NCBI RefSeq assembly: GCF_001315985.1 | Contig: NZ_BBBI01000005.1 | Location: 1-64,000 of the forward strand | Source of the DNA: Vulcanisaeta distributa JCM 11216 | Lineage (GTDB): Archaea > Thermoproteota > Thermoprotei > Thermoproteales > Thermocladiaceae | Direction of reading: 5' to 3' | Length of the DNA stretch: 64,000 nucleotides | Shown here: piece by piece, positions 35,394 to 53,151 of the stretch | Layout of the letters: each line of letters begins with the position of its first letter | How positions within the stretch are numbered: the stretch's first letter is position 1 | Notes under the pieces: model-generated | The model's input: the letters and a program-made list of their open reading frames with translations, nothing else | Told to the model about the DNA's origin: nothing | The model's database searches: none | Position numbers and translations under genes: made by a program

Positions 35394-35438
35394 GGTATTG
35401 TTTATTAATTTTGGGCGTGTATTTGTAGTGCTTATAAA

Positions 35439-35454
35439 TAGGATTGTTATCCTA
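35439..35454 (+). promoter_or_regulatory. Cobalamin-regulon operator, copy 1 (cbiG)
   Basis: TAGGAT-TGTT-ATCCTA directly follows TATA box CTTATAAA. GTG 35459 of cbiG lies five bases after the palindrome. A protein bound here would cover the TATA-to-start interval, so repression is the likely mode. Same sequence and position at four other units in the locus. Confidence 0.82.
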
Positions 35455-35458
35455 CATC

Positions 35459-36453
35459 GTGTCGGCTCTGGAGAGGTTATGGAGAGGTGTGCTTATTGTT
35501 TATGCTAGCAATGCCGGTACTAATACCGCCAATAGGCTATTTAAGTTGTTGAGGGGGGGTGTTGGTGTACCGACGGTGGTGATTAAGTATGACGGTGATT
35601 TAGGCAGGTACTGGGGGGGCTGTTTTGACGCCATAGTCCTCGTGATGGCGTTGAGCGGTGCCGTCAGGCTAGTTTGTAAATACGCTAAGTCTAAGGTTGT
35701 GGATCCAGCCGTAGTTGCCATTGATGATGGGGGGGGTAGGTACGTAATACCTATATTGGGCGCCATTGGGGGGGTGCCAACGAGATCGCTAAAGCAATCG
35801 CTGAGTTAATGGGGGCCGAGGCCGTGATAACCACGGCGGCCGAGTACATGGGCATTACGGGCATTGAGGAACTAGCCAGGCTTCTTCATTGTGACATTAT
35901 CAATACTGAGGAATTACCAAGTTTTTACTCAGCGCTCCTCGGTGGTAAACCAGTATGTATCGTCGGCATAGATAAATTACCAAGTAGGGTCAAGGGTAAC
36001 TACATGGTTGGGCTTAATACGGAGTGTGAACACGCCGTGGTAGTGGGTGATCCTCAACAATCATTAGGGGGCATCAAGGCGTTGCGGTGCATGCCGTATA
36101 AGGTGATCATTGGGGTTGGGCTTATGAATGAGGCCGGTGTTGATGAGGTAATTAAGGCCATAAGAGCTGCGTTGGACAGGCTCGGCATTGAAGCCGATAG
36201 GGTCTTAACCGTGGCCTCAATAAAGCCAAGGGTCGGCGAAGCAGCCAAGGCATTGGGCTTACCCTTTAGGTTAGTAGGTGTTGATGAATTGCGGAGAATC
36301 GATTACGGATGCGCCACACCGCCAAGTGATGAGTTAAGAAGGCTAGGCATTAGGGGTGTTGCTGAGCTTGTGGCGTTAGCCGCGGGAGGAACCTCGCTGT
36401 TACTTAGGAAGATCGTTGTTGGGAGGGTCACGGTGGCCGTGGCGAGGGTCTAA
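35459..36453 (+). CDS. cbiG: Cobalt-precorrin 5A hydrolase CbiG
   Basis: Opens the delta-lactone ring of cobalt-precorrin 5A and releases acetaldehyde. N domain: RGVLIVYASNAGTNTANRLF, and VLVMALSGAVRLVCKYAKSK. The family motif before the break near 35765 reads, after correction, ILGGHWGANEIAKAIAELM (a G lost in GGCGCC and three G gained). The C domain has VIIGVGLMNEAGVDEVIKAI, then ASIKPRVGEAAKALGLPF. About 330 residues. GTG start five bases after operator copy 1; cbiE follows. Confidence 0.88.
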
Positions 36454-36486
36454 CGCTTATAAGCTGGACATTAAGTCACGCCTTAA

Positions 36487-37161
36487 ATGCTATACATAAT
36501 CGGCACTGGACCTGGCGACCCAGGGCTAATAACCGTTAAGGGTCTTAACGTACTACGCTCAGTCAATGTGGTGGCCGGTTGGGGCAGTGTGCTTGATAGA
36601 TTCAGTGAATACCTCGTTGCTAAGAGGATCATTAGGCTTAGTTATAGGAATGAGGCGGAGGGCCTTAAGGAACTGATGACCAGCGCGATCAATGGTGATG
36701 CGGCACTGTTAATACATGGGGATCCCTCGGTATCGGAATCGCAATTAATGTCCAAGATAACGCAGCTATGCAGGGAGTACGGGGTTAATTACGAGGTCAT
36801 ACCAGGCGTCTCCTCAGTAAATGCGGTATTGGGGGGGTTACTGGGTATTGACTTGGACTCCTCCGTATTTATATCCCTGCATGTGAGGGGGTCTTTAGAC
36901 GATAGGCTGGAGGAGCTTAAAACAATATTAAAGGTGCTGAGGAGGTACATCGTTGTACTACCACCTCCATACCCGCATGGGCCACGGCTGATCGCTAAGT
37001 CGCTTTTGGATTTGGGTTGTGACCCTGAGGTCATAATAATTGAAAGAGCCACGTATAACGACCAAAGAATTATGAGGACAAAGGCCTCAAGCATCATAAA
37101 CTTAAGTAATGAGTTTAGTGATTTATCAATAATGGTAGTACCACCATGTGATCGTGGTTAG
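36487..37161 (+). CDS. cbiE: Cobalt-precorrin-7 C5-methyltransferase CbiE
   Basis: SAM-dependent tetrapyrrole methylase: MLYIIGTGPGDPGLITVKGL at the N terminus, IHGDPSVSESQL, then NYEVIPGVSSVNAVLGGLLG. The short length (224 residues) and weak LIHGDPS motif point to CbiE rather than CbiH or CbiF. Unfused to CbiT, which is encoded 3 kb further on. Second gene of the unit under operator copy 1. Confidence 0.85.
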   Translation: MLYIIGTGPGDPGLITVKGLNVLRSVNVVAGWGSVLDRFSEYLVAKRIIRLSYRNEAEGLKELMTSAINGDAALLIHGDPSVSESQLMSKITQLCREYGVNYEVIPGVSSVNAVLGGLLGIDLDSSVFISLHVRGSLDDRLEELKTILKVLRRYIVVLPPPYPHGPRLIAKSLLDLGCDPEVIIIERATYNDQRIMRTKASSIINLSNEFSDLSIMVVPPCDRG

Positions 37162-37174
37162 TAATTCTTTTAAA

Positions 37175-37190
37175 TAGGATATATGTCCGG
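37175..37190 (+). promoter_or_regulatory. Degenerate operator-promoter copy upstream of cbiX
   Basis: CTTTTAAATAGGATATATGTCC repeats the TATA-plus-TAGGAT arrangement, but the right arm is GTCCGG instead of ATCCTA. It lies 25 bases before the intact copy 2. It may be a decayed duplicate or a weak auxiliary site. Confidence 0.5.
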
Positions 37191-37199
37191 GTTTTTAAG

Positions 37200-37215
37200 T
37201 AGGATATGAATCCTA
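37200..37215 (+). promoter_or_regulatory. Cobalamin-regulon operator, copy 2 (cbiX)
   Basis: TAGGAT-ATGA-ATCCTA follows TATA box TTTTTAAG. Here the N4 spacer contains the ATG (37206) used as the cbiX start in this annotation, unlike the other copies, where the start codon comes after the palindrome. A frame error just downstream could hide a later true start. Confidence 0.78.
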
Positions 37216-37637
37216 CATCGGTACTCGTAATAACCCATGGGTCCCGTAGATCTGAATTCCTAGATTGGTTTAATGATTTGGAGCACTACATTAAGGGTAG
37301 GTTGGGTGGCTTAGGTTCAATAGCTCATGTTAGTATTGCTCATAATGAGTATTCAAGCCCTAACTGGAGAGATTCATTAAGGGAGCTTCTTCGCTCTGGT
37401 ACCAAGCGCGTTGTGATCGCCCTAGCTTTCTAGGCCCTGGTAATCACGTGATTAGGGACATAATGGGGGTCCCTGGGTGTTCAGGAGTTTAATAAGTGGG
37501 TTAGGGCATCGTGGGGGTGGTTACGAGTTTGAGGTTTACGTTACAAGGCCGCTAATTGACTCGGTACTTGTTAAGGAGGCGTTGCTTATGAGAATAGTCA
37601 ACGCCCTGAACACATCCGTGGACATGGTAGGTACATC
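37206..37637 (+). CDS. cbiX: Sirohydrochlorin cobaltochelatase CbiX (small type), broken
   Basis: SVLVITHGSRRSEFLDWFND and HVSIAHNEYSSPNWRDSL match small archaeal CbiX, which inserts cobalt into sirohydrochlorin without ATP. Breaks near 37428 and 37470-37495 separate VVIALAFLGPGNHVIRDIM and the tail EFEVYVTRPLIDSVLVKEAL. The end is unclear: the tail runs into the cbiC start region, so either the genes overlap or they are fused. Rejoined length about 140 residues, near the small-CbiX size. Confidence 0.75.
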
Positions 37638-38260
37638 ATGGATCCCGAGGAGATTGAAAGAAATAGTCTCGATAAGGTGGTTGAGTTGGTCCGTAGAGAG
37701 CTTGGTACTAACAATGAATCAATTATTAGGCTTGTGGCCAAGGCCGTGTTTGCCACCGGCAACCCCCCCACCCTTATTAAGTACATGCATGTGGATCCCG
37801 AGGTATTTAATGTATTTAGGGAATTAATGAATGGTAACGCCACGGTAATTGCTGATGTTAAAATGGTGGCGGTCGGCGTGAGGTGGAGCAACACCGTGAC
37901 CTTGATAGACGATGTGGAAGTCACAAAGTTAGCGGTGGAACTCGGAATCACGAGGACCGCAGCATCAATGAGGATAGGGCTGAGCAGATTCAAGCCCGCG
38001 ATTCCAATTATCGGTAATTCACCCACGGCCCTTATCGAGGTAATTAAGATGATTAGGGAGGGCTTGGAGGTCCCCCCATGGTAATCGCGACGCCGCCGGG
38101 CTTCACTAACGCCGTGGACGCAAAGGAGGAGTTAATCAGGATGGGGGGGATACCTAGCGTGGTCATGAGGGGGGGTACGTATGGGGGGGGTAGTAACGTG
38201 GCTGTGGCCGTATTTAATGAATTACTAAGCATTGTAAGGGAGGGGGGGCATGGCGGGTAA
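37638..38260 (+). CDS. cbiC: Cobalt-precorrin-8 methylmutase CbiC
   Basis: Moves the C11 methyl group to C12, giving cobyrinate. MDPEEIERNSLDKVVELVRR, then ATGNPPTLIKYMHVDPEV, IADVKMVAVGV (catalytic His usually in a nearby loop) and TRTAASMRIGLSRFKPAI. After the 6-C run near 38073 the frame changes to VIATPPGFTNAVDAKEELI and GIPSVVMRGGTYGGGSNVAV, the expected C-terminal motifs. About 207 residues. ATG 38250 of cbiH overlaps its end. A slightly earlier start in the cbiX overlap is possible. Confidence 0.85.
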
Positions 38261-38993
38261 GCTCTACATAGTTGGTGTCGGGCCAGGAAGCCCTGGGCTA
38301 AGGACTGTGGCCGCAATTAATGCAATCAGAGACAGTGATGTAATTATTGGCTATAACACGTACATAAATCTAATTAGCGATTTAATTAATGGTAAGGAAG
38401 TGATTAGATCAAGAATGCATGAGGAGGTCATGAGGGCTAAGCTTGCCATTGAGAAGGCCCTCAATGGCCATGTAGTCTCGCTGGTGAGCGGTGGCGATCC
38501 CCAGGTCTATGGATTGGCGAGCCTCGTCCTCGAGTTAATAAGCAAGGAAGGGCTCGACTTGAGGCCTACCGTAATACCTGGAGTCACCGCGGCCCTCGCG
38601 GCGGCCGCCAGGTTGGGCGCGCCTCTCAACATGGACTTCGCGGTTGTAAATCTAAGCAATCTATTGGTTAGTGATGAGGAGATTATGATGAGGATTAAGG
38701 CGGCGGCAAGCGGCGACTTCGTGATTGCTCTGTACAACCCGATCAGTAAAGACGTACTTATCAAAGCCATGAATCTAATATCTATGTTTAGAAATGCATC
38801 AACGCCGGTGGGTATAGTCAGGAATGCCTATAGGGATGGCGAGTTCGTGATAACGACAAACTTAGGTAACTGGATGAGGTATTTAGAGGTCATAGATATG
38901 AATACGACATTAATAATAGGTAACTCAAGAACCTACGTTTACAGAGGACTCATGATAACGCCAAGGGGGGTTACAGGGTATGAGCGTGATTGA
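38250..38993 (+). CDS. cbiH: Cobalt-precorrin-3 C17-methyltransferase CbiH
   Basis: Tetrapyrrole methylase that also drives ring contraction. KLYIVGVGPGSPGLRTVAAI, VSLVSGGDPQVYGLASLVLE, VIPGVTAALAAAARLGAPL and the CbiH-typical FVIALYNPISKDV. The length of 247 is normal, and no frame error is visible. It overlaps cbiC upstream and cbiD downstream by about ten bases each. Confidence 0.9.
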   Translation: MAGKLYIVGVGPGSPGLRTVAAINAIRDSDVIIGYNTYINLISDLINGKEVIRSRMHEEVMRAKLAIEKALNGHVVSLVSGGDPQVYGLASLVLELISKEGLDLRPTVIPGVTAALAAAARLGAPLNMDFAVVNLSNLLVSDEEIMMRIKAAASGDFVIALYNPISKDVLIKAMNLISMFRNASTPVGIVRNAYRDGEFVITTNLGNWMRYLEVIDMNTTLIIGNSRTYVYRGLMITPRGVTGYERD

Positions 38994-40049
38994 GTATTTC
39001 AAACGCTTCGGCATAACCACGGGGGGGGCAGCGGCTGCGGCTGCCGCTAAGGCAGCAACCATTGCATTAATTAGGGGGGGTATTACGCCCAGTAGCGTCA
39101 CAATACCAACGCCTGTTGGGCTTAGGCTTGAGGTCTTCATTGATAGGGTCTTTACGATTAACGATTACATATGCGCCGACGTGCGTAAAATCGCCGGTGA
39201 TAACCCAGACAGCCTAAATAACGCGGTGATTAGGCCTGCGTCCGTTCAATAAATGAACAAGTAATAAAAATCAGAGGTGGGCATGGCGTGGGTAAGGTCG
39301 TGAGGCCAGGTTTAAGCATCCCCCCCATGGGTGAACCGGCCATTAGCCCCCCCACGGCTAAGCTCATGATTGAAAGTGCCGTTAGGGAGGTCGTTAATGC
39401 CGGTGTTGAGGTCATGATAGAGGTACCCAATGGCGAGGAGTTGGCCAAGGCAACAATGAATGAGGACGTCGGTATAGTCGGTGGCATATCCATACTTGGG
39501 ACGACTGGGATTGAATGGCCTGTCAGCAATGAGACCTTCATTCAGCATATCAAGGCCCAATTAACGGCATTAAGGGGGGGTAAGTACGATGGTGTAGTGA
39601 TTGCCTCCGGGAATAGGGCTGTTAGTTACGCTAAGGCGATTTACAGGATGCCCGTGGTTAAGGTAGGCGACCTAATAGGCACCTCTGTTAAAGAGGCCAT
39701 CGGGCTAGGCTTCCATAGAGTCGTCATTGCGATGCTGCCTGGCAAGGCCGTTAAGTTGGCGGCCGGTTTAATGAATACGCATAGTTCAATTGGAGATGCG
39801 CGTATTGAGACGATTACCTGGGCAGCAGTAATGGCGGGGATTAATGGAGAGTTATTACGGAGGATCGCGGCCTCAAAGACTGTTGGTGAGGCGGTGCATT
39901 ACCTCGGTGATGCGGCGGGTAGGGTTATGAGGGTGATAGCCGAGAGGGCGTTGGGCAGGTTAAGGAGGTTGGGCAATGCCTCTCTTGAGGTCGTGATATT
40001 TAGTGAGGATGGGGGGGAGGTACTCGCGAGGGTTAATAGCCATGACTAG
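38980..40049 (+). CDS. cbiD: Cobalt-precorrin-5B C1-methyltransferase CbiD, one frame break
   Basis: [21 protein letters not shown] (family GxTTGxxAxAAAKAA), and [14 protein letters not shown] break near 39245 (after NNAVI) is followed by [18 protein letters not shown], then [19 protein letters not shown] and [20 protein letters not shown], all CbiD hallmarks. About 355 residues. Methylates C1 in the cobalt-first pathway. Overlaps cbiH and cbiT. Confidence 0.9.
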
Positions 40050-40702
40050 CCCTGCCTGGCCCTACATAACTCCTGGAATACCTGATGAGCTGTTTGAGCG
40101 TGTTGAGGGCATACCAATGACTAAGGAGGAGGTTAGGGCGTTAGTAATTTCTAAGCTTAGGCTGAGGGGGGGACTCGAGGGTTCTGGATATTGGTTCAGG
40201 GACTGGCTCGGTTGCTGTGGAGGCTGCCCTAATAGCGAGGAGGGGGCCTCGTATATGCTATTGATAGGGATGAAAGAGCAGTTGAGTTGACCCGTAGGAA
40301 TGCCATGAGGTTTGGCGTGATGATAGGGTCATTGTGATACATGGCGAGGCACCAGAGGTCCTGGACAAAGTGCCTAGTGAGGTTGATGCAGCGTTCATAG
40401 GTGGTAGTGGCGGTAAGTTGAGGGATATAATCACTGGTACATGCGGTAAATTGGCCGTGGGTGGCCGTTTAGTGATTGACGTGATAACCCTAGAGAATGT
40501 ATCGCTCGCTTTAACTACAATGGTTGAGTCAGGCTTCGTAAATGTGGAGGTTACCGAAGTCGTGATAGCCAAGGGTTTAAGAACCAACCTAGGCACTGCG
40601 ATGCTCTCGAGAAACCCAATATTCATAATAGTCGGTGAGAGAGACAGATGTCAATCAACGCATTTAATGGCGAGTATTAAGGATGCCATTAAACGGTGGT
40701 GA
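40042..40702 (+). CDS. cbiT: Cobalt-precorrin-6B C15-methyltransferase (decarboxylating) CbiT, two frame breaks
   Basis: [20 protein letters not shown] (CbiT N terminus), then ISKLRLRGG. Corrected frames through about 40170-40320 give the SAM site [17 protein letters not shown], then [19 protein letters not shown]. The last frame has [29 protein letters not shown] and [18 protein letters not shown]. About 218 residues. Partner of CbiE, here encoded separately. Confidence 0.87.
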
Positions 40703-40704
40703 TA

Positions 40705-41415
40705 ATGATGCACGAAAAAGGCGGCAATGAGGTACCTAGGCTATACATCATTGGGCTGGGGGGGCCGGGTGACCCAGGTTTAATCACGGTTATGGGTGCT
40801 GAGGTCCTCCGCCAGGTTAAGCTAGTTTTCATACCCCCCCATTCCACCGGTAGCAATAGGAGCTTGGCGTATACAATAGTTAGTAGGTACGTGAGTCCTG
40901 ATGCCCAGATAGTATTCCTGGGGTTCCCAATGGTTAAGGAACCAAGCGCCGAGACTTTAATGGCTAATGCGAGCGTGATATGCGATGGGTTACGTAGGTA
41001 CGGTAGTGTGGCGTTTGTGGTTCTTGGCGACCCATCGCTATATAGCACCTTCTACCGGGTTAAACCATTCATTAATTGTGACTATGAACCCATAATCATT
41101 CCTGGGGTCTCCTCAATAATGGCCTGCGCCGCCAAGGCTGGTGTTAATCTAGCCATAGGCGGTGAGTCTATAGTCATACTCGTGGGCGATGATACCGAGA
41201 GGTTAACGAGGGCTATGGACTTCGCCGACACGATAATAGTGCTTAAGGGCAACACCGACATGGGCGGTATAGCGGCATTACTTAGGGATCATGGGTATTC
41301 CGTGACCTACGCCAGGAGGTGCTACATGGATGGCGAGTTAATAATTAAGGAGCCAAGCGGTGAACTGCCTAGGGACTATTTCTCGCTTATCATTGCTAGA
41401 AGGATTTATAAATAG
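40705..41415 (+). CDS. cbiL: Cobalt-precorrin-2 C20-methyltransferase CbiL
   Basis: Tetrapyrrole methylase: RLYIIGLGGPGDPGLITVMG (a 7-G run adds one Gly to GxGPGD), KLVFIPPHSTGSNRSLAY as typical for CbiL, FVVLGDPSLYSTFYRV and IIPGVSSIMACAAKAG. About 237 residues. GTG codons at 40696/40699 precede ATG 40705; all overlap or abut the cbiT stop. Last gene of the six-gene unit under operator copy 2. Confidence 0.87.
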   Translation: MMHEKGGNEVPRLYIIGLGGPGDPGLITVMGAEVLRQVKLVFIPPHSTGSNRSLAYTIVSRYVSPDAQIVFLGFPMVKEPSAETLMANASVICDGLRRYGSVAFVVLGDPSLYSTFYRVKPFINCDYEPIIIPGVSSIMACAAKAGVNLAIGGESIVILVGDDTERLTRAMDFADTIIVLKGNTDMGGIAALLRDHGYSVTYARRCYMDGELIIKEPSGELPRDYFSLIIARRIYK

Positions 41416-41428
41416 GATTTACATCCTA
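41413..41428 (+). promoter_or_regulatory. Cobalamin-regulon operator, copy 3 (cbiF)
   Basis: TAGGAT-TTAC-ATCCTA follows TATA box TTTATAAA; ATG 41434 lies six bases after it. It overlaps only the last codons of cbiL, so cbiF has its own promoter. Confidence 0.82.
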
Positions 41429-41433
41429 CATCG

Positions 41434-42240
41434 ATGGTTGGGAAGGTAATATTCGTGGGCGCGGGGGGGCCTGGCGACCCTGAACTAATTACTGTGAAGG
41501 GCATGAAGTACCTCCAACAGGCCGATGTCATAATCTACGCAGGTTCCCTGGTAAACCCAGAAGTACTGAGGTGGGCTAGACCAAATGCGGAGATCTATAA
41601 TAGTGCGTCAATGACGCTTGAGGAGATCGTGAATATAATGATTAGTAGGGCTAGGGAGGGCAAGTTAGTGGTTAGGCTTAAGTCAGGCGATGCAGGCATA
41701 TATGGCGCATTGCTTGAAGAAGTTGTCGCCCTCAGGGAGGCTGGCATACCGTATGAGGTGGTGCCTGGAGTAACGGCAGCGCTGGCCGCAGCCGCAGCCC
41801 TAGGTATTGAGTTAACCCTACCCAAGATAGCCCAGACGGTGATCATAACCAGGGCATCAGCCAGGGTACCGATGCAGGGTTCGATAAAGGACTTCGCTAA
41901 GGCATTACTCATGGGCGCCACAATGGCCATATACACCGGTGTCCACTTAATTGATAAGGTTGTTAAGGAGTTAAGGGAGGCCGGTGTACCTGATGATACG
42001 CCGGTTACGGTGGTTTATAAGGCGACATGGCCCGACCAATTAATAATCAGGGGGGGCACGCTGGCCGACATTGCCGAGAAGGTTAAGAGGGCTAGGATAA
42101 CCAAGGACTCCGTGATAATAGTGGGCAAGGCTGCGGACCCCTCCATCCTAGACCTGCCATTAAGATCGAGCGTCTACGACCCAAGGCACACCCATAGCTT
42201 TAGGCCGAAACCTAAGATCAGTGGTACAGATGTTGAGTGA
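41434..42240 (+). CDS. cbiF: Cobalt-precorrin-4 C11-methyltransferase CbiF
   Basis: VIFVGAGGPGDPELITVKGM (one surplus Gly in GAGPGDPEL), then [50 protein letters not shown] and ITRASARVPM, the CbiF/CobM pattern. 268 residues, normal. Own promoter with operator copy 3, six bases before ATG. Confidence 0.92.
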   Translation: MVGKVIFVGAGGPGDPELITVKGMKYLQQADVIIYAGSLVNPEVLRWARPNAEIYNSASMTLEEIVNIMISRAREGKLVVRLKSGDAGIYGALLEEVVALREAGIPYEVVPGVTAALAAAAALGIELTLPKIAQTVIITRASARVPMQGSIKDFAKALLMGATMAIYTGVHLIDKVVKELREAGVPDDTPVTVVYKATWPDQLIIRGGTLADIAEKVKRARITKDSVIIVGKAADPSILDLPLRSSVYDPRHTHSFRPKPKISGTDVE

Positions 42241-42294
42241 GACAATTAATTAAGACGTGAAACGCCTAATACATTAGCTTCAGTGAATAAAAAT

Positions 42295-42561
42295 GTGAGC
42301 ATAGCATTTTTCGCTAAGAACCTGGGGGGGCTCTAGGTAATTGGCAGGACTAAGCGGAGAACCGTGGACAACAGAGTCGTGGAGCTCGAGGTGTCATACG
42401 CCAGGTTGAGGCTGTATGGTGAGGAGGGTTACGTGATCGTAGAGGTAATAGATGACTCGCCAGTCGACGTATTAATAGGTGTTAGGGCCCTTGAGGCTCT
42501 AGGCTTCGTAATTGACCCAGTAACAGGGACATTAAAGAAGATAGGCCTAATAGCGGTATAA
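42295..42561 (+). pseudogene. Retropepsin-like aspartyl protease remnant
   Basis: The C-terminal part (RVVELEVSYARLRLYGEEGY, then VDVLIGVRALEALGFVIDP) matches the small archaeal retropepsin-like (clan AA) fold. Upstream, after a G-run break near 42330, FFAKNLGALGIGRTKRRTV continues the domain, but the catalytic D-T/S-G should precede it and instead reads VSIAFF. The front half is thus missing or altered. It lies between cbiF and the btuF promoter. Likely a truncated, inactive gene. Confidence 0.5.
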
Positions 42562-42768
42562 CGGCTAACCATTTTACATCTGTTGCATAATATAACTTAA
42601 TTCTAGCATTTGGCCATTTTAAGCATTAACGACCCATTCAATCCATAATACTTAGTAATGCCCATGGAATTAAAGCCCCAGCCTCAACTGCCGTAAATGA
42701 TCGTGGTAATTGAAAGGCGAATTTACCGTAACAATCGATGTAACTTCGTGAATGAAAAAGCTTTTAAA

Positions 42769-42784
42769 TAGGATACTTATCCTA
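42769..42784 (+). promoter_or_regulatory. Cobalamin-regulon operator, copy 4 (btuF)
   Basis: TAGGAT-ACTT-ATCCTA follows TATA box CTTTTAAA. GTG 42789 and ATG 42792 lie five to eight bases downstream. It controls the largest unit: btuFCD, the chelatase genes and the GATE-type membrane gene. About 200 gene-free bases lie before it. Confidence 0.82.
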
Positions 42785-42791
42785 CCACGTG

Positions 42792-43914
42792 ATGTCGAGC
42801 GATAAATCGAAAAACGGTAAGGTCACTCCCGTATTAATCACGATAATAGTGATAGCAATAGCCCTAGCAGTAACGATAGCAATATATGAGTGGAATATAC
42901 ATAGGTCAGTGGTCAAAACCCCCCCTCTTACACTTATTATTCATCGCCTAATTTCGAAATCGTTAGTTATAATGATACTTCTGTCACTATTGAGAACTAT
43001 GGGTCTAACGTGACCATAGGTATACCCGTTAAGAGGATTGCGGCCGATAACACGGTTGCCATGCAAGTCCTGATTGATATAGGGGCTGAAAACACAATAG
43101 TTGGGATTGAGGGCTATGCCACAGAGCTCCCTTGGCTCTTTGGGAATCTAACGGCGTTACCAGCGTGAGCCAGGAGATGTGGTCGTGGAATTACGAGGAG
43201 ATGGTTAACTTAAGGCCTGACCTGGTCCTAGAGTGGAGCTACGGTGTCCAGACAGTGAGGAGTAAGCTGGCTCCATTCGGCATCCCGGTGATTGGTTATG
43301 GGTCTCAGGACAACTTGACGTCATTCATCTACTTCCTCGGACTAATCACAAACCGTACCAGCAATGCCGTGAGGCTCATAAACTTCATCAATAATGTGCA
43401 TCACGTATTAAGCGAGGGATTGAGCAAGACCTCCACTAGGTATAAGGCTTACGTAATCTTTGACTACGAGTATAGCCTATGGTTCACGTCAGGTCCCTCT
43501 GGAGATCCATATTGGGCTGCTGTAAATGCCGGCCTACAGCCATGCTTCAATAAGTCCATGCAGGTTGAGCCCGGCGCAGTGCTTCAGTGTAACCCAGACG
43601 TCATTATTGCGGTTACGTGGAATTTAAATCCGCACTCGCCGAATGCCACGGCCTATTGTGAATCAATAATCGAGACTATTAAGAACAACCCAGTGCTTAA
43701 TGCGACAAACGCCGTTAGGTACAACAGAGTCATCATCATACCCGGCTACCTAACCGAGGGGGGGCCTCCGCAGGTGATAGTCTCGCTATACATAGCTAGT
43801 CAGGTGTACCCAAGCGCCCTCAGTGGCGTTAACGCCACGCAATACCTCAATCAGTACTTTGAGGAGTTCCTGAGAACCGCCGAGCCAGGTGGTGTCTGGT
43901 GGTGCAGTGGGTGA
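42792..43914 (+). CDS. btuF: Cobalamin/metal-chelate ABC transporter, binding protein (BtuF-like)
   Basis: A signal-anchor (VLITIIVIAIALAVTIAIY) precedes a class III (helical-backbone) binding protein: RIAADNTVAMQVLIDIGAEN, LRPDLVLEWSYG, FGIPVIGYGSQDNL, CNPDVIIAVTW. Breaks lie at the 6-C run near 42925 and near 43130. About 372 residues. The context is cobalamin genes; cobinamide, B12 or another chelate are all possible ligands. Cys residues CFNK and QCNP may pair. Confidence 0.78.
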
Positions 43915-44943
43915 GGTGGGGGGGTTTGGTGGCGGTTAGTGGTTTGGTCCTCCTCCGTTGGTTGTCCTTGACATCATGATTGGGGGGGCCTATGGAATTG
44001 GGCCAATGACCGTCTTAAAGGTTGTTATTGACGGCATAGACCCAATATTCAATGTGCCACACGACGCATACCTAGTGGTTTGGCAGATAAGGCTACCGGA
44101 GGCCCTGGCATCGCTAATACTCGGCGCAGCACTTGCGTCCGCGGGCGCCGTGTTGCAGGGCATACTGAGGAATCCGCTGGCGTCGACCTACACGCTCGGC
44201 GTCTCTGCCGCCGCGGGCTTTGGGGGCTGCCGTGGCCATACTCCTAGGCGCCGGTTATGTTATTAGGTACTATCTGCCTATGATAACAGAGCCGTACCTG
44301 GTGATCATTGGCGCATTTATAGCGGCTTCGCTCGCAGCATTGCTCGTTTACTTCCTATCCTTCATTAAGGGTGCGTCGCCAATCACGATAATACTGGCGG
44401 GCGTGGCCGTGATGTTCGTGTTTAGCACGGGGACCTCGCTCATCCAGTACTTCTCTGGCAATCCTGATGTGAGCCACGCCATCGTCATGTGGATGTTGGG
44501 TAGCGTAACTAACGTGACCCTCAACTATATACCATACATGGCCCTATCCCTACTTGCAATACCATACTACGTCTTGATATCTTGGAGATTAAATGCGCTT
44601 AACCTTGGCGATGATGTTGCCCATAGTCTCGGAATTAATGTTAGGAATACGAGACTGGCTGCAATGCTTGCGGCAGCGTTCCAGGCTGCGGCCACGATAA
44701 GCTTCGTTGGTCTAGTGGGCTTTGTCGACTTGGTGATACCGAACATAGCGAGGGCCTTGGTGGGCAGTGACAATAGGTACTTGATACCGGCATCGGCACT
44801 CATGGGTGCAGACATCACGGTGCTCGCCGACGTGGTTTCAAAGACCTTAATACCGCCATACGTGATACCCATAGGCGTTGTGCTCTCAATGATTGGCGCC
44901 CCCCCATACCTACTCACGATAATAATATCGAGGGGGGGGCTAG
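43911..44943 (+). CDS. btuC: BtuC-family ABC permease, two frame breaks
   Basis: FecCD/BtuC permease: [80 protein letters not shown] 43911 overlaps the btuF stop; breaks are near 43947 (C lost in CTCCTCCGTT) and 44222. The reading frame as given runs on into the ATPase, but with the 8-G run at 44932-44939 reduced to 4 G it stops at TAG 44941, just before the next ATG. I therefore end it there. Confidence 0.8.
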
Positions 44944-44945
44944 GT

Positions 44946-45719
44946 ATGGTTATGAGTAAGGCCGTACTTGAGGTTAGGGACCTCGAATGCGGCTATGATA
45001 GGCCAGTGATTAGGGACGTCAATATCAACGTTGATGGTGGAGGGTTGGTGGTGCTAATGGGGGGGCCTAACGGTGCTGGCAAATCCACACTGATCAAATG
45101 CATCCTAGGTGTGGCGAGGGTTTTCAGCGGCTCCATTAGGGTTAATGGTAAGGATGCGTTAAGGATGGATAGGCGTGAGATTGCTAAGCTCGTCTCCTAC
45201 GTGCCGCAGAATCACGCAGTCGCATACCCAGTTAGGGTTTTTGACGCGGTTTTGCTGGGTAGGTTACCACACATGGGTTTTAGGCCGAGTAAGCTGGATA
45301 TTGACACGGCCCTCAATGCCATGAGGAGACTCGGCATTGAGCACCTAGCCAATAAGTTGGTCACTAGGTTAAGCGGCGGTGAGGCGCAGCTCGTCCATAT
45401 CGCTAGGGCAATTGCGCAGGGAGGGGGGGTCCTAATGCTCCTTGACGAGCCTACGAGCAACCTAGACCTAAAACACCAGGTGGCGGTCATGGAGACCTTG
45501 ATTAGGATTGCACGTGAAGACGGAATTGCAGTGCTGGTGACAATGCATGACATAAACCTAGCCCTTAAGTATGCGGATAGAATTTACGTAATGCGCGAGG
45601 GCAGGATAGTCGCTGAACTAAGCCCAGGCGACATTAGCCCGAGTATTATCGAGGAGGTGTATGGGGGGGTTAAAACCACGGTGATCGAGCACAATGGGAG
45701 GCCTGTGGTGATCGTATGA
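44946..45719 (+). CDS. btuD: BtuD-like ABC ATPase
   Basis: Walker A MGGPNGAGKSTLI (one surplus Gly; native GPNGAGKST), Q-loop VPQNHAVAYPV, signature LSGGEAQLVHIARAI, Walker B VLMLLDEPTSNLDL, switch VTMHDINLAL. Start MVMSKAVLEVRDLEC. About 257 residues. As written it is in one frame with btuC, but the fusion depends on an inflated G-run. Its stop overlaps the chelatase start as ATGA. Confidence 0.85.
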   Translation: MVMSKAVLEVRDLECGYDRPVIRDVNINVDGGGLVVLMGGPNGAGKSTLIKCILGVARVFSGSIRVNGKDALRMDRREIAKLVSYVPQNHAVAYPVRVFDAVLLGRLPHMGFRPSKLDIDTALNAMRRLGIEHLANKLVTRLSGGEAQLVHIARAIAQGGGVLMLLDEPTSNLDLKHQVAVMETLIRIAREDGIAVLVTMHDINLALKYADRIYVMREGRIVAELSPGDISPSIIEEVYGGVKTTVIEHNGRPVVIV

Positions 45720-47691
45720 GCCGCCGTGTCGTTTTCCCATTCCCAGCCATTGTCGGTATGGAGAAGGCTAAGTTGGCCCTCCTCGCCGTGGCCGTGAACC
45801 CATCAATAGGCGGCGTCCTGCTTAGGGGGGGTGATAAGGGGGGGACTGGGAAGACGACGCTCGTTAGGTCCTTCGCGGATGTATTGCCTGAGATCGAGGT
45901 CGTGGCCGACTGCCCATTCAACTGTGACCCACACGACCCGCAGCTCATGTGTGATTCGTGCTATGCAAGGTACCAGCGTGGTGAGAAGTTGCCGGTGGCT
46001 GTTAGGAAGATGAGGGTTGTTGACCTGCCACTCTCGATAACCGTTGATAGGCTCATCGGCACGCTGGACATTAGGAGGGCCATAACGGAGGGCGTGAGGG
46101 CGTTACAGCCAGGTCTCCTTGCTGAGGCGAATAGGAATATTCTATACATCGATGAGGTTAACCTACTCGATGACTACATAGTTGATGTAATCCTAGACGC
46201 GGCGGCCTACGGCTGGAATATCGTGGAGAGGGAGGGCGTATCTGTAAGGCACCCCGCCAGGTTCGTACTAATAGCCTCCATGAACCCGGAGGAGGGTGAG
46301 CTTAGGCCGCAGCTCCTCGATAGGTTTGGCCTAGTGGTGGATGTGGAGGCTCCTCAGGACCCAGGGGGGGTTAGGGCTGAGATTGTTAGGAGGGTTGAGG
46401 AGTTCAATAGGGACCCAGAGGGATTCTACAGGAGGTGGGAGCCGAGATTGAGAGGATTAGGGAGGGGGGGATCAAGAGGGCTAGGGAGTTGATTAGGGAT
46501 GTTGAGGTGCCGGAGGACCTACTTAAGCTCTTGGCCGAGACCGTGGTTAAGCTGGGCATTAGGACAAGCCGCGCGGAGATAGTCACCATCAGGACTGCGA
46601 AGGCGTTGGCTGCCTTGGATGGTAGGGCTAGGGTGACGATGGAGGACTTACAGAAGGCCATGGAGCTGGCACTACCCCACAGGCTCAAGGCCAAGCCCTT
46701 CGAGAGGCCCAGGATGCCGATACCCCCCCACAGCCAACGCCCAACGAAGATAATGCCCAGGGTAGGCGGCAAATGCCTAGTTCAATGCATAACCAACAGG
46801 GCAGTGCAGTGCTAGGTGGTGAGGGTAATGAGCAGGGTGGACTTAATGGTGGGAGTAGTGTAGGTGATGAGGCTAATGCTTATGGTGATACCAGGAGGTA
46901 TGGAGTATCCAGCGTGGATATTCCTGTGGAGTTTAGGAGGGAGCTGATACGTACTGGGGGGGGCCGCGGCCTTAGGTCGAGGTCCTCCTTTAGGAAGATT
47001 GTTGGTCAGCCCCCACGGTATCCCGTACATGTACCTACCGCCGAGGAATGGGGGGGATTTAAGGGACATAGACCTCACCGCATCTATCGTTCACGCATCG
47101 CTCAGAGGCTCGGGCCTACCCATTAGGGTTGGTTTGGAAGACCTAGTGGTCAGGGTTAGGAGGTCTAGGACCCCTAGGGTCTCGCTCATAATACTTGACG
47201 CCAGCGGTAGTATGAATTTCATGAGGAGGATTGAGGTTGCGAAGGGGGGGCTCGTGAGGAGGATAACTGAGGAGTCCTACGTGAGGAGGAGCTACGTGGG
47301 GGGGCTAATAAGCTTCAGGGACCGTGGCGTTGACGTGGTCATAGAGCCCACGAGGAATTATTGGCAAGTCCTAAACGCCCTAGATGAGTTATCAAGCGGT
47401 GGGGGGGCAACACCAATGCCCGCGGCACTGGTCTACGCAGTTAATTTAATCAAGAGATTAAACCTCAAGCTAAAGGGTGATTATTGGGCTTACTTAATAA
47501 CTGATGGTAAGGCAAACGTGCCCCTCATGGGCGATGTTAGGGAGGAGGTTGAGAGGTTCATGGGTGAGTTGAGTAGGTTGGCTAAGGTCGTCATCTACGA
47601 CACAAGGCCGCAGCTCATCTACGACCCATCAATAAGCCACATGGACGTACTGAGTAGGTACGCAGTTAATGTTGTTAGGGTTGGTGAGTAA
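45716..47691 (+). CDS. chlID: Chelatase AAA+ / vWA fusion (ChlI-ChlD type), in several frames
   Basis: The AAA+ half has PFPAIVGMEKAKLALLAVAV, Walker A LLRGGDKGGTGKTTLV (native RGDKGTGKT, two surplus Gly), a Cys-rich insert (DCPFNCDP, MCDSCYARY), Walker B LYIDEVNLLD and SMNPEEGELRPQLLDRFGL. Breaks near 46440, 46755 and 47010 lead through a Gly/Asn/Ser-rich linker to a vWA domain with MIDAS DASGSMNFM and TDGKANVPL. About 658 residues. Such I-D fusions work with CobN-like large subunits to insert metal with ATP. Confidence 0.85.
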
Positions 47692-47692
47692 C

Positions 47693-50600
47693 ATGCCCAG
47701 GTGCCGCATGCTACTAATCACAAGGTCAGTCCTCACTGAGGGGGGGTTTTATGAAGCGTTAAGTGAGGCGTTAGGCGGAGTTGGCGATGTAGACCTCGAA
47801 GTCATGTACCTGGAGAGTTACGAAGTTAATGAGGTCTCTAAGCAATTAAACGCCGTGAGGAGACCTGACATTGCCTTGCTAAGCTTAATGGGGGGGACCA
47901 CCCAGAACTACTAAGCTACCTAAGGAATTGGTTACGCGAGACTCCCATTGTCTTTACACTAAGTACGGGTTTAGAGACTATAATGCTTACGAGGGTTCGT
48001 AATTACGAGTTAGGCGGATTCTTAACTAGTTCAGTATCTACGTATAATGACACTATTAAAACTACGAATTACTTTGACCCAAAGACCCTTTCCCACGTTC
48101 TTCATGAGGCATCCAAGGCCCTTTCAGACCCCATATCCCATTACGTTGAGGATTGGGCATTATTAATTGATTATTGGAGGAATTGGCGTAAAGAAAACAT
48201 AGTCAATATGATACGCCTAGTGCTGAGGAATTACTGTGACATAGCCGTACCAGCGCCAGGGCCTCCCATCGAGTTGGGGGGGGATTACTGGATTGAGGAT
48301 TATGAGGGGGGGTACGTATACCATAGCGCTGATGAACTTCTAAAGCAGAGGGGGGGTCTCAAGTCGCCACTCATAGTGTTAATGGCCTACTCTGGCCAGT
48401 CCTATGATAAGGCTAGGAAGGTAATTACCCATATAATGAAGAGGAGGGTCGACACGATCTCGCTTCTTTCCAACTATGGCTATACATTGAGGGGGCTTAA
48501 GGAGCTGTTTAATAATGCTGATGTGGGGGCTATACTCGACCTTCAGTGGTTCAGGCTCATTAGGAACCGAGAAGATGAGGGCGTTCTGCTAAAGTTCAAT
48601 GTTCCTGTCATGAACCCGGTGGTCATGTACGGCAGGGACATAGATGCGTGGATTAAGGATCCAACGGGGGGGCTAAGCCCCGTTGAGGTTATATATGCCG
48701 TGGCCATGCCCGAGGTTGATGGCGCCATAGAGCCCATACCAATAGCGGGCCTCGTTGATAAAAATGGCGTGAAGGCTATGGAGGTAATTCAGGATAGAGT
48801 TGATAGGGTCCTCAATAGGGTTGATAAGTGGTTGGCCCTTAGACATAAGTCTAATGCGAGTAAGAGGATTGCCATTGTGATGTATAATTATCCACCCGGT
48901 GAGGAGAATATTGGTAGAGCCTCATACCTCGACACGCTTAAGTCGGTCGAGGTACTGTTGAGGAGGTTGAGGAAGGAGGGCTATGGTGTTAAGGCCATTA
49001 CCGCTGAAGCCATTAAGGAATTCTTCGTGAAAAACCCAAACTCCGGTAGGTGGTCGGCCGGCACCGATTATGTGCTGGTTGATCAAACAACGTATATGGA
49101 CTTATTCAATAGGTTAAGGCCGGAGCTTAGAGATAAAGTCATTAAGCAGTGGGGGGGTGAGCCCCCCTGGCAATATAATGGTTAAAAACGGATACCTCAC
49201 GCTGCCCGTGCTTGATCTAGGCAATGCAATTATCGTATTGCAACCAAGTAGGGGGGGCTGGCATGAGGATCCTAACAAGATTTACCATGACTCGGAATTA
49301 TACCCGCATCACCAATATGTCGCGCTTTATAGGTGGCTTGAGGAGGTTTGGCGCGCCGATGCCGTTATTCACGTGGGGGGGACCCACGGCACACTCGAGT
49401 TCCTCCCAGGTAAGCAGGTCGGCCTATCCTCCAGCTGTCCCCCAGATGCGCTCCTCGGCAATTTACCAAACATTTATATCTACCATGTGGTTGTCGTCGG
49501 TGAAGGTACAATCGCCAAGAGGAGGTCATACGCCGTATTGATTAGTCACCTCTCACCCAGGATGACCGAGGCGGGCCTCAGTGATGATCTCAAGAGGTTG
49601 CGTGATTTAATCGATGAGTACAGAGAAGCAAACGTTGTTGATTCACCTAGGGCAAGCGCTGTGCTCAAGACCATAGAGGGCATTGCAGGTAAGTATGGGC
49701 TAGAGGTTAAGGACCTCGATGTGCTTTACGACGAGCTTATGAGGATGGAACGCTCGGCAATGCCGTATGGGTTGAGGGTACTTGGCATGGAATTAAGTGA
49801 TGATGAAATCGTTGATTACTTAACGCTGGCGTTAAGGCGTGATAGGGGTGTCGTTAAATCGCTGCATAGGCTCCTGGCCGAGGCAATGGGGTATGACTAT
49901 GATGACTTACTCGAGCGCCCAGGTAAGTATGCGAATATCCTAAGGTTAATGGACGAGGGGGGGGTTAAAAGGATTGTCAGGGCGTTAATTACGAACGGCA
50001 TTGATTTGGCAATTAAGGTAGCTGAGGAATATGGGATTAGGAGTGATGACGCGAAGACCGTGCTGAATTATGCACGTGACATAGCGGAGAGGTTAAGGCT
50101 ATCGCCTAAACTTGAGCTTGAGAACGTAATTAGGGCTTTGAGTGGGGGGGAGTACATACCGGCCGGCGTTGGCGGTGACTACGTAATGGACCCCCCCGAT
50201 GTCTTACCTGCAGGGAGGAACTTCTACGCGCTCGATCCACTTAAGATACCCAGCGATTCGGCATTGGAGTTGGGGGGGCTAGAATCGCGGAGGATAGTAT
50301 TAGGAAATACTTGGAGCAGTATGGTAGGTACCCCCCGAGACCGTGGGCGTCATTGTTTGGGGGTGGTCAGGAATCTAGGACTAGGGGCGTCACTATTGGC
50401 AGGCGCTGCGGTATCTTGGCGTTAAGCTTATTCATAGGCCAGGTAGTTGGGATCCAAGACTTGAGGTAATACCACTTAAGGACCTCGGTAGGCCTAGGAT
50501 AGATGTCGTTGTTACGATGAGCGGGGTGTTTAGGGATATGTTCCCGCACTTAATATCATTGATTAACAAGGCCGTTAAGCTCGTTGCCGAGTTAGATGAG

Positions 50601-51415
50601 CCGTTAGATATGAATTACGTCCGTAAGCACTACCTCGAATTGAGGAGTAGGTATGGTGAGACCTCCTTAATAAGGACGTTCAGCGAGAGGCCCGGTGACT
50701 ATGGGAATAAGGTTAATCACTTGATAGAGACGTCGAGGTGGAGGACGGATATGGACATTGCCGGTGTTTATGCCATGTACATGGGTTATGGCTATAATGG
50801 AGACATGCGTGGGATGAACTCAAGCGAGCTTAAGGACTTATTCAAGGCATTGCTTAGCAAGGTGGACATCACAAGCCAGGTCCAGTCGAGTGTTGATTAC
50901 TCAATAATCGACATAGATGATTACTACGCATACCTGGGCGGCCTATCCAAGGCGGTTGAGGTATACTCAGGCAGGAAGCCCCTTATCCTATACACGGACT
51001 TAACGCAGGATAGGCCTAGGATGATGACTGCGAAGAATGCCGTTGGTTCTACGTGAGGACTAGATTACTCAATCCTAAGTGGATCGAAGGCATGAGAAAG
51101 CACGGTTACATGGGCGCCCAGAACATTTCGAAGCGCGTTGAGTATGTTCTCGGGGGGGTTGCCGCGACCATGAATGCCGTGGATGACTGGGTTTGGGATA
51201 GGATTGTGGAGACGTATGTGTTTAATGAGGAGATGAGGAGGTGGTTTACCGAAGTTAATCCCTACGCATTGGAACAAATCATTAAGAGACTATATGAGGC
51301 GCATGAAAGGGGGGGCTTATGGCATACTTCAGAGAACGTCATACGTAAATTAAGGGAGATATACACAGAGTTAGAAAATGCGCTGGAGGGAATCGGCCAA
51401 TGGGGGGGCAGGTAA
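47693..51415 (+). CDS. cobN: Cobaltochelatase large subunit CobN, in five frames
   Basis: About 1240 residues, the right size for CobN/BchH. Motifs in order: VPVMNPVVMYGRDIDAW, MPEVDGAIEPIPIAGLVD, KRIAIVMYNYPPGEENIGRA, HDSELYPHHQYVALYRWLEE, DAVIHVGGTHGTLEFLPGK (native HVGTHGT), then DVVVTMSGVFRDMFPHLI and MGAQNISKRVEYVLGG. Breaks are at about 47890, 49160, 50330-50500 and 51050, mostly at 7-G or 7-C runs. Inserts cobalt into the corrin or tetrapyrrole ring using the I/D subunit. The end overlaps the next gene. Confidence 0.9.
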
Positions 51416-52335
51416 CTAACTTAGTTATTTATGAACTTCACTACCTAACGTTCGCCATACTGGGCATAGTACTGGGTGTCCTTACGATGTACTACATAAT
51501 GAGTAAAGAAGCGGTAATAAGGGCCATAGGCAGGCTGGGGCGGTGGATAACGGCGTTGTCTGGGTTACCCAGCTATTGTTCCTTACCCTTCGTGGTCTCC
51601 CTCGTTAGTCCATCCACCGCATCCTCAATGCTCATAGCCATGTATAAGGACGGTAGATTGACGCGTAGGGAATTGTACATAGCATCGCTCATTAATTCCT
51701 TCCCAGCCCTACTCTCGCACTTGAGGACTCTCATGCCGGTGCTACTGAGTACCATGGGGGGGGTCTACGGTCTACTATACCTCCTAATCCTTATGACCAT
51801 TGGCTTAATGCAGATGGTAATATTTGCAATCCTTGGGAGAAGAGGTTCAATTAGGGATAGAGACGAGGACGGTATAGCCGAACTTACGGAGCATGCCGTG
51901 AGCGGTTCGCTTAATTTGGGAAGGGTCTTGAAATTGATTGTAAGGATAGTACTGGTTACGTCAATAACGAGTGTTGCGTTAACGGTTATTGAGCTTTTCG
52001 GACTAAACAACTACCTCAGTGATTACCTATCGCACGTGTTCGGTACCTTAGGCCCATACGTGGTGAGCATAATAGTGGCTTATGTAATTAGTGATAATGC
52101 AGCCTTCGCCGCCGCGGGCACGCTCATTAATGAGGGGGGGCTCAGTGGCATCTTAGTAATTAAGTGGTTGCTGATTGGCTACGTGGCCTCATCACTAATA
52201 CGCGGAATTAGGCACAATGCGCCCTACTACCTCGGCATTTACGGGCTTAAGGATGGCGTTACCATAATGCTCACCTCCATACTAATCAGGGCACTCCTGG
52301 CGTTACTTATCTTGGGAATTCTCTACCTTATCTAG
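51400..52335 (+). CDS. Polytopic membrane protein, GATE-like, in the B12 unit
   Basis: About eight spans. A conserved-looking loop GLPSYCSLPFVVSLVSPSTA, followed by SLINSFPALLSHLR, recalls nucleoside-recognition (GATE) membrane proteins, and is repeated in style by VAYVISDNAAFAAAGTLIN in the second half. Overlaps cobN by 16 bases, so certainly in the same transcript under operator copy 4. The assignment is by pattern; a cobalt, corrinoid or precursor transporter role is inference from context. Confidence 0.6.
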   Translation: MGGQVTNLVIYELHYLTFAILGIVLGVLTMYYIMSKEAVIRAIGRLGRWITALSGLPSYCSLPFVVSLVSPSTASSMLIAMYKDGRLTRRELYIASLINSFPALLSHLRTLMPVLLSTMGGVYGLLYLLILMTIGLMQMVIFAILGRRGSIRDRDEDGIAELTEHAVSGSLNLGRVLKLIVRIVLVTSITSVALTVIELFGLNNYLSDYLSHVFGTLGPYVVSIIVAYVISDNAAFAAAGTLINEGGLSGILVIKWLLIGYVASSLIRGIRHNAPYYLGIYGLKDGVTIMLTSILIRALLALLILGILYLI

Positions 52336-52365
52336 GACTTTTCATAATGTGGTAATGCTTATTAA

Positions 52366-52381
52366 TAGGATTTACATCCTA
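52366..52381 (+). promoter_or_regulatory. Cobalamin-regulon operator, copy 5 (cbiZ)
   Basis: TAGGAT-TTAC-ATCCTA, identical in its spacer to copy 3, after TATA box CTTATTAA. ATG 52389 lies seven bases after it. Confidence 0.82.
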
Positions 52382-52388
52382 TCACGTA

Positions 52389-53151
52389 ATGAATACGGCG
52401 TTTAGGGAGGTCTGGTCCCGTGACGGCATGACTGCCCGAATATACTATCAAAGCTATGGCGGTGCTAACGTTAAGACACTCCTCATAGACCTGGCACAGA
52501 GTAGGCGAGTGCTCAGTACAATGCATGGCATGATTAACGTACGCTTTGTATGCAATAACTACGCACCGCCAGACCTATGGTGCGCACTACATAGCCAGGG
52601 CTTCCGTGAGAAGTACCTGGACACGTTAATGGTCCAACTTGGGGGGGTGCCCCCCCTCATGACTATGCGTGCCTAGGCACGGGCGTTGACATGGATGACT
52701 TAGCGGTGGCGAGTGATGAGTACAGGGATGTGTGGGTTACAGCCCTCACCACCGCAGGTGTTGAGTCAAACGCATTGAGGACGGGCATAGATAGGGCATC
52801 TACGTACGAGGTTGATGGCGTGTTTGAGGGGGGGTGGGCACGATAAATATCATATTGATAACCAACGCCTCATTGACCGAGGCCGCCATGGCCAGGGCCT
52901 TAATTACGATAACCGAGGCCAAGTGCGCGGCGCTTCAGGACTTAGGCATAGAGAGCAGTTACTCACCGGGCCTAATAGCCACGGGTACGGGCACGGACAA
53001 CGTAATTGTGGTCCCCGGTAATGGGATACGCATAACGTACACCGGCGGTCACTCCAAAACTGGCGAGCTAATTGGGAGAGTGGTCTACGAATCTGTTAAG
53101 GAGGCCGTGACCAGGCATAGGGCCAATGCTGGGCCCAAGACTATCCAGTAG
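52389..53151 (+). CDS. cbiZ: Adenosylcobinamide amidohydrolase CbiZ, two frame breaks
   Basis: Cleaves the aminopropanol side chain of scavenged cobinamide to give cobyric acid for salvage. LLIDLAQSRRVLSTMHGMIN and VQLGGVPP, then in the corrected frame GTGVDMDDLAVASDEYRD, VWVTALTTAGVESNALRTG and ASTYEVDGVFEG. The last frame has INIILITNASLTEAAMARAL, ATGTGTDNVIVVPG and GGHSKTGELIGRVV. Breaks are near 52655 and 52835. About 254 residues. Transcribed alone behind operator copy 5. Confidence 0.88.

Follow-up and report, generated by a model that had tools for sequence, protein, structure and literature searches.

The Palindrome at the Cobalamin Locus

The first 64,000 nucleotides of contig NZ_BBBI01000005.1 of the archaeon Vulcanisaeta distributa JCM 11216 (assembly GCF_001315985.1), the whole stretch analyzed and here called the window, contain a cobalamin (vitamin B12) locus whose genes, from cbiG to cbiZ, are read on the plus strand (Table 1). 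Five promoters within this locus carry exact copies of a 16-bp palindrome, TAGGAT-N4-ATCCTA. These copies had been described in an earlier note on this DNA, with identical arms and with a TATA box joined directly to the 5' end of each. The description was confirmed for all five, and the window has no further exact copy. The note also placed each copy within about ten bases of a start codon. The start codon lies downstream of the palindrome at cbiG, cbiF, btuF, and cbiZ but not at cbiX, whose ATG (37206-37208) lies within the N4 spacer of the palindrome, as it does in 5/5 Vulcanisaeta loci having an exact cbiX site. In the same five loci a degenerate second copy with its own TATA box (here 37175-37190) is found 24-26 bp upstream of the exact site. 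Given the position of the ATG, the cbiX transcript probably starts from this upstream TATA box.

Under a first-order Markov model of the window, 0.009 exact copies are expected where five are seen (P(≥5) = 6e-13). The window holds 38 perfect 6-N4-6 inverted repeats, among which the arm TAGGAT alone reaches five copies and the runner-up arm two. The same model predicts 0.35 exact copies in the whole genome (2.42 Mb), where eight were found (P(≥8) = 4e-9) versus one place for a reversed control pattern. The three copies beyond the window precede a Peripla_BP_2/FecCD/ABC operon of the btuFCD type (L006), cobT (L007; TIGR00303 over its cut-off), and a gene for a major facilitator superfamily (MFS) transporter (L005). 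All eight are abutted by a TATA box and lie at promoters by their position, and seven stand at recognized B12 genes.

When mismatches were allowed, the bare pattern fell to chance level, with 34 matches in the window at up to three mismatches versus a shuffle mean of 38, and 134 in the genome at up to two versus 130 for the reversed pattern. The signal is therefore carried only by exact or TATA-fused copies. With the TATA box included in the pattern, up to two mismatches returned eight places in the genome versus none for the control. None of the seven single-mismatch matches in the genome is TATA-fused, and these were treated as chance.

Table 1. Features of the cobalamin locus and loci of candidate B12-linked genes. 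Positions are window coordinates except where locus handles (L) are given.
Feature	Location	Strand	Remarks
TATA box TTATAAA (35432-35438) and exact palindrome (35439-35454)	35432..35454	+	cbiG GTG at 35459
cbiG (frameshifted in assembly) and tetrapyrrole methylase gene	35459..37161	+	CbiG_C/CbiG_N matches
Upstream TATA box TTTTAAA and degenerate palindrome TAGGATATATGTCCGG before cbiX	37168..37190	+	Kept in 5/5 Vulcanisaeta loci with exact cbiX site
TATA-like TTTTAAG and exact palindrome (37200-37215)	37193..37215	+	cbiX ATG 37206 in spacer; CbiX domain match
cbiX, cobJ/cbiH, cbiD (two pieces), cbiT, tetrapyrrole methylase	37206..41415	+	Domain matches
TATA box and exact palindrome (41413-41428)	41406..41428	+	Tetrapyrrole methylase (cbiF-like) ATG 41434
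Tetrapyrrole methylase, cbiF-like	41434..42240	+	TP_methylase match; name cbiF from the earlier note
TATA box and exact palindrome (42769-42784)	42762..42784	+	btuF-type binding protein next
btuF, FecCD permease, ABC ATPase, chelatase AAA/VWA subunits, CobN (fragmented)	42789..51415	+	Single transcript assumed
TATA box and exact palindrome (52366-52381)	52359..52381	+	cbiZ ATG 52389
cbiZ (frameshifted in assembly)	52389..53151	+	CbiZ match 1e-33
MFS transporter, target loci	L005 5257-5838; also L040, L046, L050, L052, L056, L067, L072, L077, L081, L085, L087, L089	- (L005)
Radical-SAM protein, about 250 aa	L120 near 3820; L119, L121, L122, L123, L132	- (L120)	Glycyl-radical activase/MoaA-like scores
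Small TPR protein, about 200 aa	L055 4031-4690, L058 3519-4082, L124 4058-4693, L133 3411-4010		Under operator, three genera

Several genes of the cobalamin locus are frameshifted in this assembly. Homopolymer runs of exactly seven bases are far more numerous in the window (85 of G, 52 of C) than runs of five or six, and they break many of its reading frames. They look like an artefact of assembly or base calling.

Distribution in Vulcanisaeta and Its Relatives

The search was extended to 61 genomes, including 12 of Vulcanisaeta (genus g1), and all 75 exact places found in them were inspected in context; the reversed pattern gave 14. Other groups of the sample are given the presumptive labels Caldivirga-like (g2), Thermocladium-like (g4), and Pyrobaculum-like (family f2). 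Such a scan had been proposed in the earlier note, and almost all of the genes hit have B12 or cobalt functions. The Vulcanisaeta genomes account for 54 exact places (versus four for the reversed control), 51 of which are abutted by a TATA box. Every one of these 51 could be assigned a target by tblastn: BtuF (16), MFS transporter (8), CbiZ (6), CobT (5), CbiX (5), CbiF (5), CbiG (4), NiCoT (1), and CobN (1). The three places lacking a TATA box (G003 1468705, G004 C7 100104, and G011 54936) had no target match.

The number of sites in Vulcanisaeta tracks gene content. Exact sites number 6-8 in each of the six genomes that encode CbiD and 1-3 in each of the other six, although three of the latter are only 54-84% complete. 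Within this CbiD-less group, the exact site is kept at btuF in five genomes and at the MFS gene in two, and G011 has degenerate sites at both. Weaker TATA-fused copies were also found at CobT, CbiX, and CbiF in G004, at CbiZ, MFS, and BtuF in G011, at BtuF in G012, G018, and G021, and at a small tetratricopeptide repeat (TPR) protein in G010, G012, G018, and G023. In six Vulcanisaeta genomes such a copy precedes a radical S-adenosylmethionine (SAM) protein gene, with the left arm intact in five and the right arm in G003.

The exact copies of g2 and g4 stand ahead of the MFS gene at five places, the ribonucleotide reductase gene nrdJ at four as counted by script (five with G018), the TPR gene at three, and btuF at two. 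The reductase of G012 scored 631 bits against NrdJ_Z (TIGR02504, cut-off 400) and 386 bits against NrdE_NrdA (TIGR02506, cut-off 341), and on the higher NrdJ_Z score it was taken to be B12-dependent. The eight genomes of these two genera yielded no CbiD. Of the 75 exact places, ten did not score as TATA-fused; two of the ten, in G012 and G018, belong to nrdJ promoters whose TATA box is a poorer one, and for G018 the script took the other orientation and assigned no target. Outside the family, the palindrome of G054 (L065 1624) is flanked by TATA boxes on both sides and lies ahead of a gene for a DUF4430-like protein. This gene lacked a reference and was counted as having no target; its Pfam match (E 4e-4) is below the curated cut-off. 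DUF4430 is related to transcobalamin domains.

The geometry of the site is close to rigid. Among the 65 TATA-fused exact copies of all genomes, the box is TTATAAA or a close variant whose last base is A or G, and it ends exactly where the palindrome begins. A frame of 57 codons or more follows 58 of the 65 copies, and in 57 of these 58 the start codon lies 2-9 bp past the palindrome; the other seven places, with short frames, are five cbiX sites, one frameshifted btuF, and G054. The half-sites are spaced 10 bp apart, or one helical turn. Archaeal transcription starts about 24-27 bp from the TATA center. With this spacing the palindrome would lie at about -22 to -7, where a bound protein would block initiation and the palindrome itself would not be transcribed.

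This placement bears on the idea that the palindrome acts in RNA, as a hairpin or riboswitch-like element within the transcript. A perfect inverted repeat just ahead of a start codon is what such an element might look like; however, a repeat directly 3' of the TATA box falls upstream of the transcript by archaeal start spacing, and no Rfam riboswitch was found. Only a sub-threshold tRNA match was returned from 32-56 kb of the window at E ≤ 1, and seven related loci gave nothing at the gathering threshold. An RNA element is hardly conceivable on this evidence. From its rigid fusion to the TATA box, the palindrome could instead be the target of an activator or a specialized part of the core promoter. 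This too is highly improbable, as the palindrome is confined to one functional gene group, and archaeal sites downstream of the TATA box usually block initiation.

A Probable Drifted Operator in Pyrobaculum-like Genomes

With up to two mismatches allowed, a survey of 398 genomes of the phylum placed the TATA-fused form in 17 of the 22 genomes of the Vulcanisaeta family versus 15 of the 376 others. Outside the family there were 17 TATA-fused matches versus about 32 for the reversed control, and no lineage beyond the family shows an operator series in this sample. At 15 cbiZ loci outside Vulcanisaeta, mostly of Bathyarchaeota, the operator was not found at up to one mismatch. When loci were scanned singly for palindromes that recur next to a TATA box, the operator was recovered in the three Vulcanisaeta test loci.

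Comparison of Pyrobaculum-like loci using the looser core GGAT-N4-ATCC with one mismatch yielded a drifted form, TGGGAT...TCCCA (for example TTAAATATGGGATATTTCTCCCA), directly ahead of start codons, including that of cobT in G027. Its half-sites are TGGGAT and TCCCA, and the geometry is unchanged. A search of 25 genomes with the drifted consensus gave 45 strand matches (42 places) versus 15 control matches, and the context was inspected for 24 of the 45. The 12 places with up to two mismatches precede genes for BtuF-like (6), CbtB-like (5), and NiCoT (1) proteins. These assignments come from Pfam for two of the six BtuF-like proteins, one of the five CbtB-like proteins (a match below its cut-off), and the NiCoT protein, and from inspection by eye for the rest. 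At three mismatches the drifted form was found ahead of the B12-independent ribonucleotide reductase NrdD in G028 (NF006358 and TIGR02487, both over cut-off in NCBIfam) and in G029 (judged by eye); the match at cobT is likewise a loose one.

One Probable Regulon Under a Putative Repressor

Taken together, TAGGAT-N4-ATCCTA is very likely the operator of one B12 regulon under a putative dimeric repressor, which probably senses a corrinoid. That synthesis and salvage are co-regulated through one shared operator, as the earlier note had proposed, is strongly supported by the genome-wide and cross-genus counts. The symmetry and position of the palindrome suggest a dimeric repressor as the protein bound to it. 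With enough corrinoid in the cell, a symmetric DNA-binding protein would sit on the palindrome and block the TATA-binding protein (TBP) and transcription factor B (TFB), or RNA polymerase, so that the genes for synthesis and uptake, cobT, cbiZ, and the accessory genes would be off. As corrinoid falls, the protein would leave the palindrome and the target genes would be expressed. The 10-bp spacing of the half-sites would fit a winged-helix or similar dimer on one face of the DNA.

Corrinoid is the more probable signal, ahead of cobalt, on two grounds: the targets include ribonucleotide reductases of both the B12-dependent and the B12-independent type, and the operator persists in genomes that have no cbiD. 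In bacteria, B12 riboswitches classically control B12-independent reductases, and the presence of NrdD therefore favors a corrinoid signal. PMC7689651 also mentions B12-independent isoenzymes. Furthermore, the absence of CbiD from the eight g2 and g4 genomes argues against a pure cobalt-for-synthesis signal.

For a wider reading the chances appear about even: this would be an order-wide archaeal B12 regulon, with a putative corrinoid-sensing repressor, whose operator drifted between families (from TAGGAT to TGGGAT), with NrdJ controlled in one lineage and NrdD in another, and with the MFS, TPR, and radical-SAM genes as members.

Several observations weigh against these interpretations. NrdJ needs B12, and its repression by B12 departs from the usual bacterial logic; among the targets, the MFS transporter, the TPR protein, and the radical-SAM protein are not known to have a role in B12 metabolism. 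Vulcanisaeta also has a second copy of cbiZ, at which there is no TATA-fused site. Genus g3, of the same family, has CbiD in four of its five genomes but no TATA-fused operator; the exact palindrome is found there at only two places without a TATA box or target, and no replacement operator was recognized in three g3 cob loci. Most of the Pyrobaculum-like cob loci yielded no recurring palindrome in the recurrence scan, the looser core from which the drifted form was derived had no control of its own, and five of the 12 best drifted places had contributed to deriving the pattern (the other seven are independent). Gene names in other genomes are assigned by sequence similarity. The earlier note had regarded absence from the cob genes of related genomes as telling against its proposal. 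This objection holds in part: the exact palindrome is absent from the g3 and Pyrobaculum-like cob loci that were read; the drifted version is present in the Pyrobaculum-like family, and none was seen in g3.

The Signal and the Search for a Regulator

No regulator was recognized by eye in the loci read, including the large cob locus of G004, and the regulator gene would lie elsewhere than in the cobalamin locus; in G011 the only candidate near a target is the short DtxR-like gene considered below. One alternative is that cobalt, or nickel and cobalt, is the signal, sensed by a metalloregulator that shuts off genes consuming or importing cobalt. The targets do include genes for cobalt transporters (NiCoT and CbtB-like), and a short protein of the DtxR family occurs in 18 of the 19 family genomes that have TATA-fused sites and in none of the six that do not (a count from query matches sorted by frame length). 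DtxR-type sites also share TAGG/CCTA cores with the palindrome, as in the IdeR consensus TTAGGTTAGSCTAACCTAA (PMC8464063). On the other hand, nrdJ, nrdD, btuF, cobT, and cbiZ are genes of corrinoid use, bypass, or salvage; the site is kept in CbiD-less genomes; NikR_C is missing from most family genomes having sites; and TAGG and CCTA are 8 bp apart here versus 9 in the 19-bp IdeR site. A cobalt signal is on balance rather unlikely.

NikR was rejected as the regulator. Of the 19 family genomes with sites, 16 have no NikR_C, among them that of V. distributa JCM 11216 itself and the near-complete G003, G010, G012, and G014; it is present in G007, G009, and G021. Of a fusion of a B12-binding domain with a helix-turn-helix (HTH), similar to CarH, there was no sign in 11 genomes as judged by frame size, in that no small extra protein stands out. 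The JCM 11216 genome has two B12-binding domain matches, in frames of 132 and 247 aa. By their size these may be a mutase subunit and a radical-SAM type. Ribbon-helix-helix (RHH) proteins occur in all 61 genomes and are uninformative as candidates.

A more specific proposal would make the regulator the short DtxR-like protein itself (about 140 aa), with an altered metal site, as found in Vulcanisaeta and the Caldivirga-like and Thermocladium-like genera. In the tree, the proteins of these genera group into a single clade (support 93/94), and they share the recognition-helix stretch S..S[AV]YEE[IV].HL. Of the E-H pair normally seen at the metal site, the His is missing, as in some other rows of the tree, and within the family the presence of the protein goes with that of the operator as counted above. 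In G011 its gene and a degenerate TATA-fused site lie about 13 kb apart, and a TATA-adjacent TAGG half-match stands at the neighboring NRAMP-like gene in six of eight aligned Vulcanisaeta promoters. However, the palindrome is absent from the protein's own promoter and from the NRAMP-like gene in these eight promoters, and its adjoining an NRAMP-like transporter in Vulcanisaeta is what would be expected of a manganese regulator. It has a close Sulfolobus relative of solved structure, SSO2273 (2x4h, 1.3e-44), yet no operator series was seen outside the family in the phylum sample. Moreover, G005, G028, G031, and G039 all have sites but no query match, with N-terminal PF01325 matches being present there. 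After examination of the tree, the neighborhood, and solved structures the protein was demoted as a very unlikely regulator; DtxR-type proteins in general fit poorly. Across loci L139-L154 the DtxR-like protein lacks the usual metal-site His, and its Vulcanisaeta neighbor, NRAMP-like as judged by eye, has DAPS in place of the DPGN motif.

Candidate B12-Linked Genes and Significance

Together with btuF, the MFS transporter is the most widely kept target. It has weak scores similar to those of aromatic-acid and sialate symporters and is a candidate importer of corrinoid or of the lower-ligand base. The TATA-fused, half-degenerate operator of the radical-SAM gene is conserved in Vulcanisaeta. In L058, the TPR gene is divergent from a CobD-like aminotransferase gene. 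Between the operator and nrdJ there is a gap of about 180 bp (measured in L053 and L054; further nrdJ loci are L086, L088, and L090), which in Caldivirga-like genomes holds an open frame of 58-64 codons; the gap may be a leader RNA or encode an upstream peptide.

To our knowledge, B12 control without riboswitches is largely an open question in archaea. The operator is short, nearly invariant, and found in cultivated genera, so its regulator could be fished with one oligonucleotide (TTATAAATAGGATNNNNATCCTA). In addition, the regulon marks the MFS transporter, the TPR protein, and the radical-SAM protein as candidate B12-linked genes, and we know of no earlier link between these families and B12.

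Comparison With Known Systems

The bacterial cobalamin riboswitch (Rfam RF00174) controls the same gene set: btu and cbi/cob genes, genes for cobalt transporters, and the gene for the B12-independent ribonucleotide reductase. It differs from the present system in that a DNA palindrome stands here at the promoter and no riboswitch was found. DtxR/IdeR and MntR are similar in the TAGG/CCTA cores of their half-sites and in being dimeric winged-helix repressors, and a member co-occurs with the operator in one family. They differ in target genes, in a distribution that gives no clear match, and in half-site spacing, as TAGGAT-N4-ATCCTA conforms to neither the 19-bp TTAGGTTAGSCTAACCTAA nor the 14-bp TTAGGNNNNCCTAA (PMC8464063). 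No description of an archaeal B12 operator of this sort was found in the literature seen, PMC8123684, PMC7689651, and PMC8464063 included, which covered few subscription papers. NikR is likewise an archaeal metalloregulator, and NiCoT is among the targets here, but its absence from most family genomes with sites, that of JCM 11216 included, sets it apart.

The closest precedent is the CBL-box, reportedly proposed by Rodionov and colleagues in 2003 upstream of B12 genes in some archaea, for a hypothetical B12 regulator. The CBL-box is likewise reported as a predicted element of the DNA and not as a riboswitch; TAGGAT-N4-ATCCTA, too, is a DNA element ahead of B12 genes, in this case a palindrome. 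Compared by description rather than by consensus, the two may or may not be the same. Archaeal B12 operators have already been proposed as a kind; what is new here is this operator, its span, and its members.

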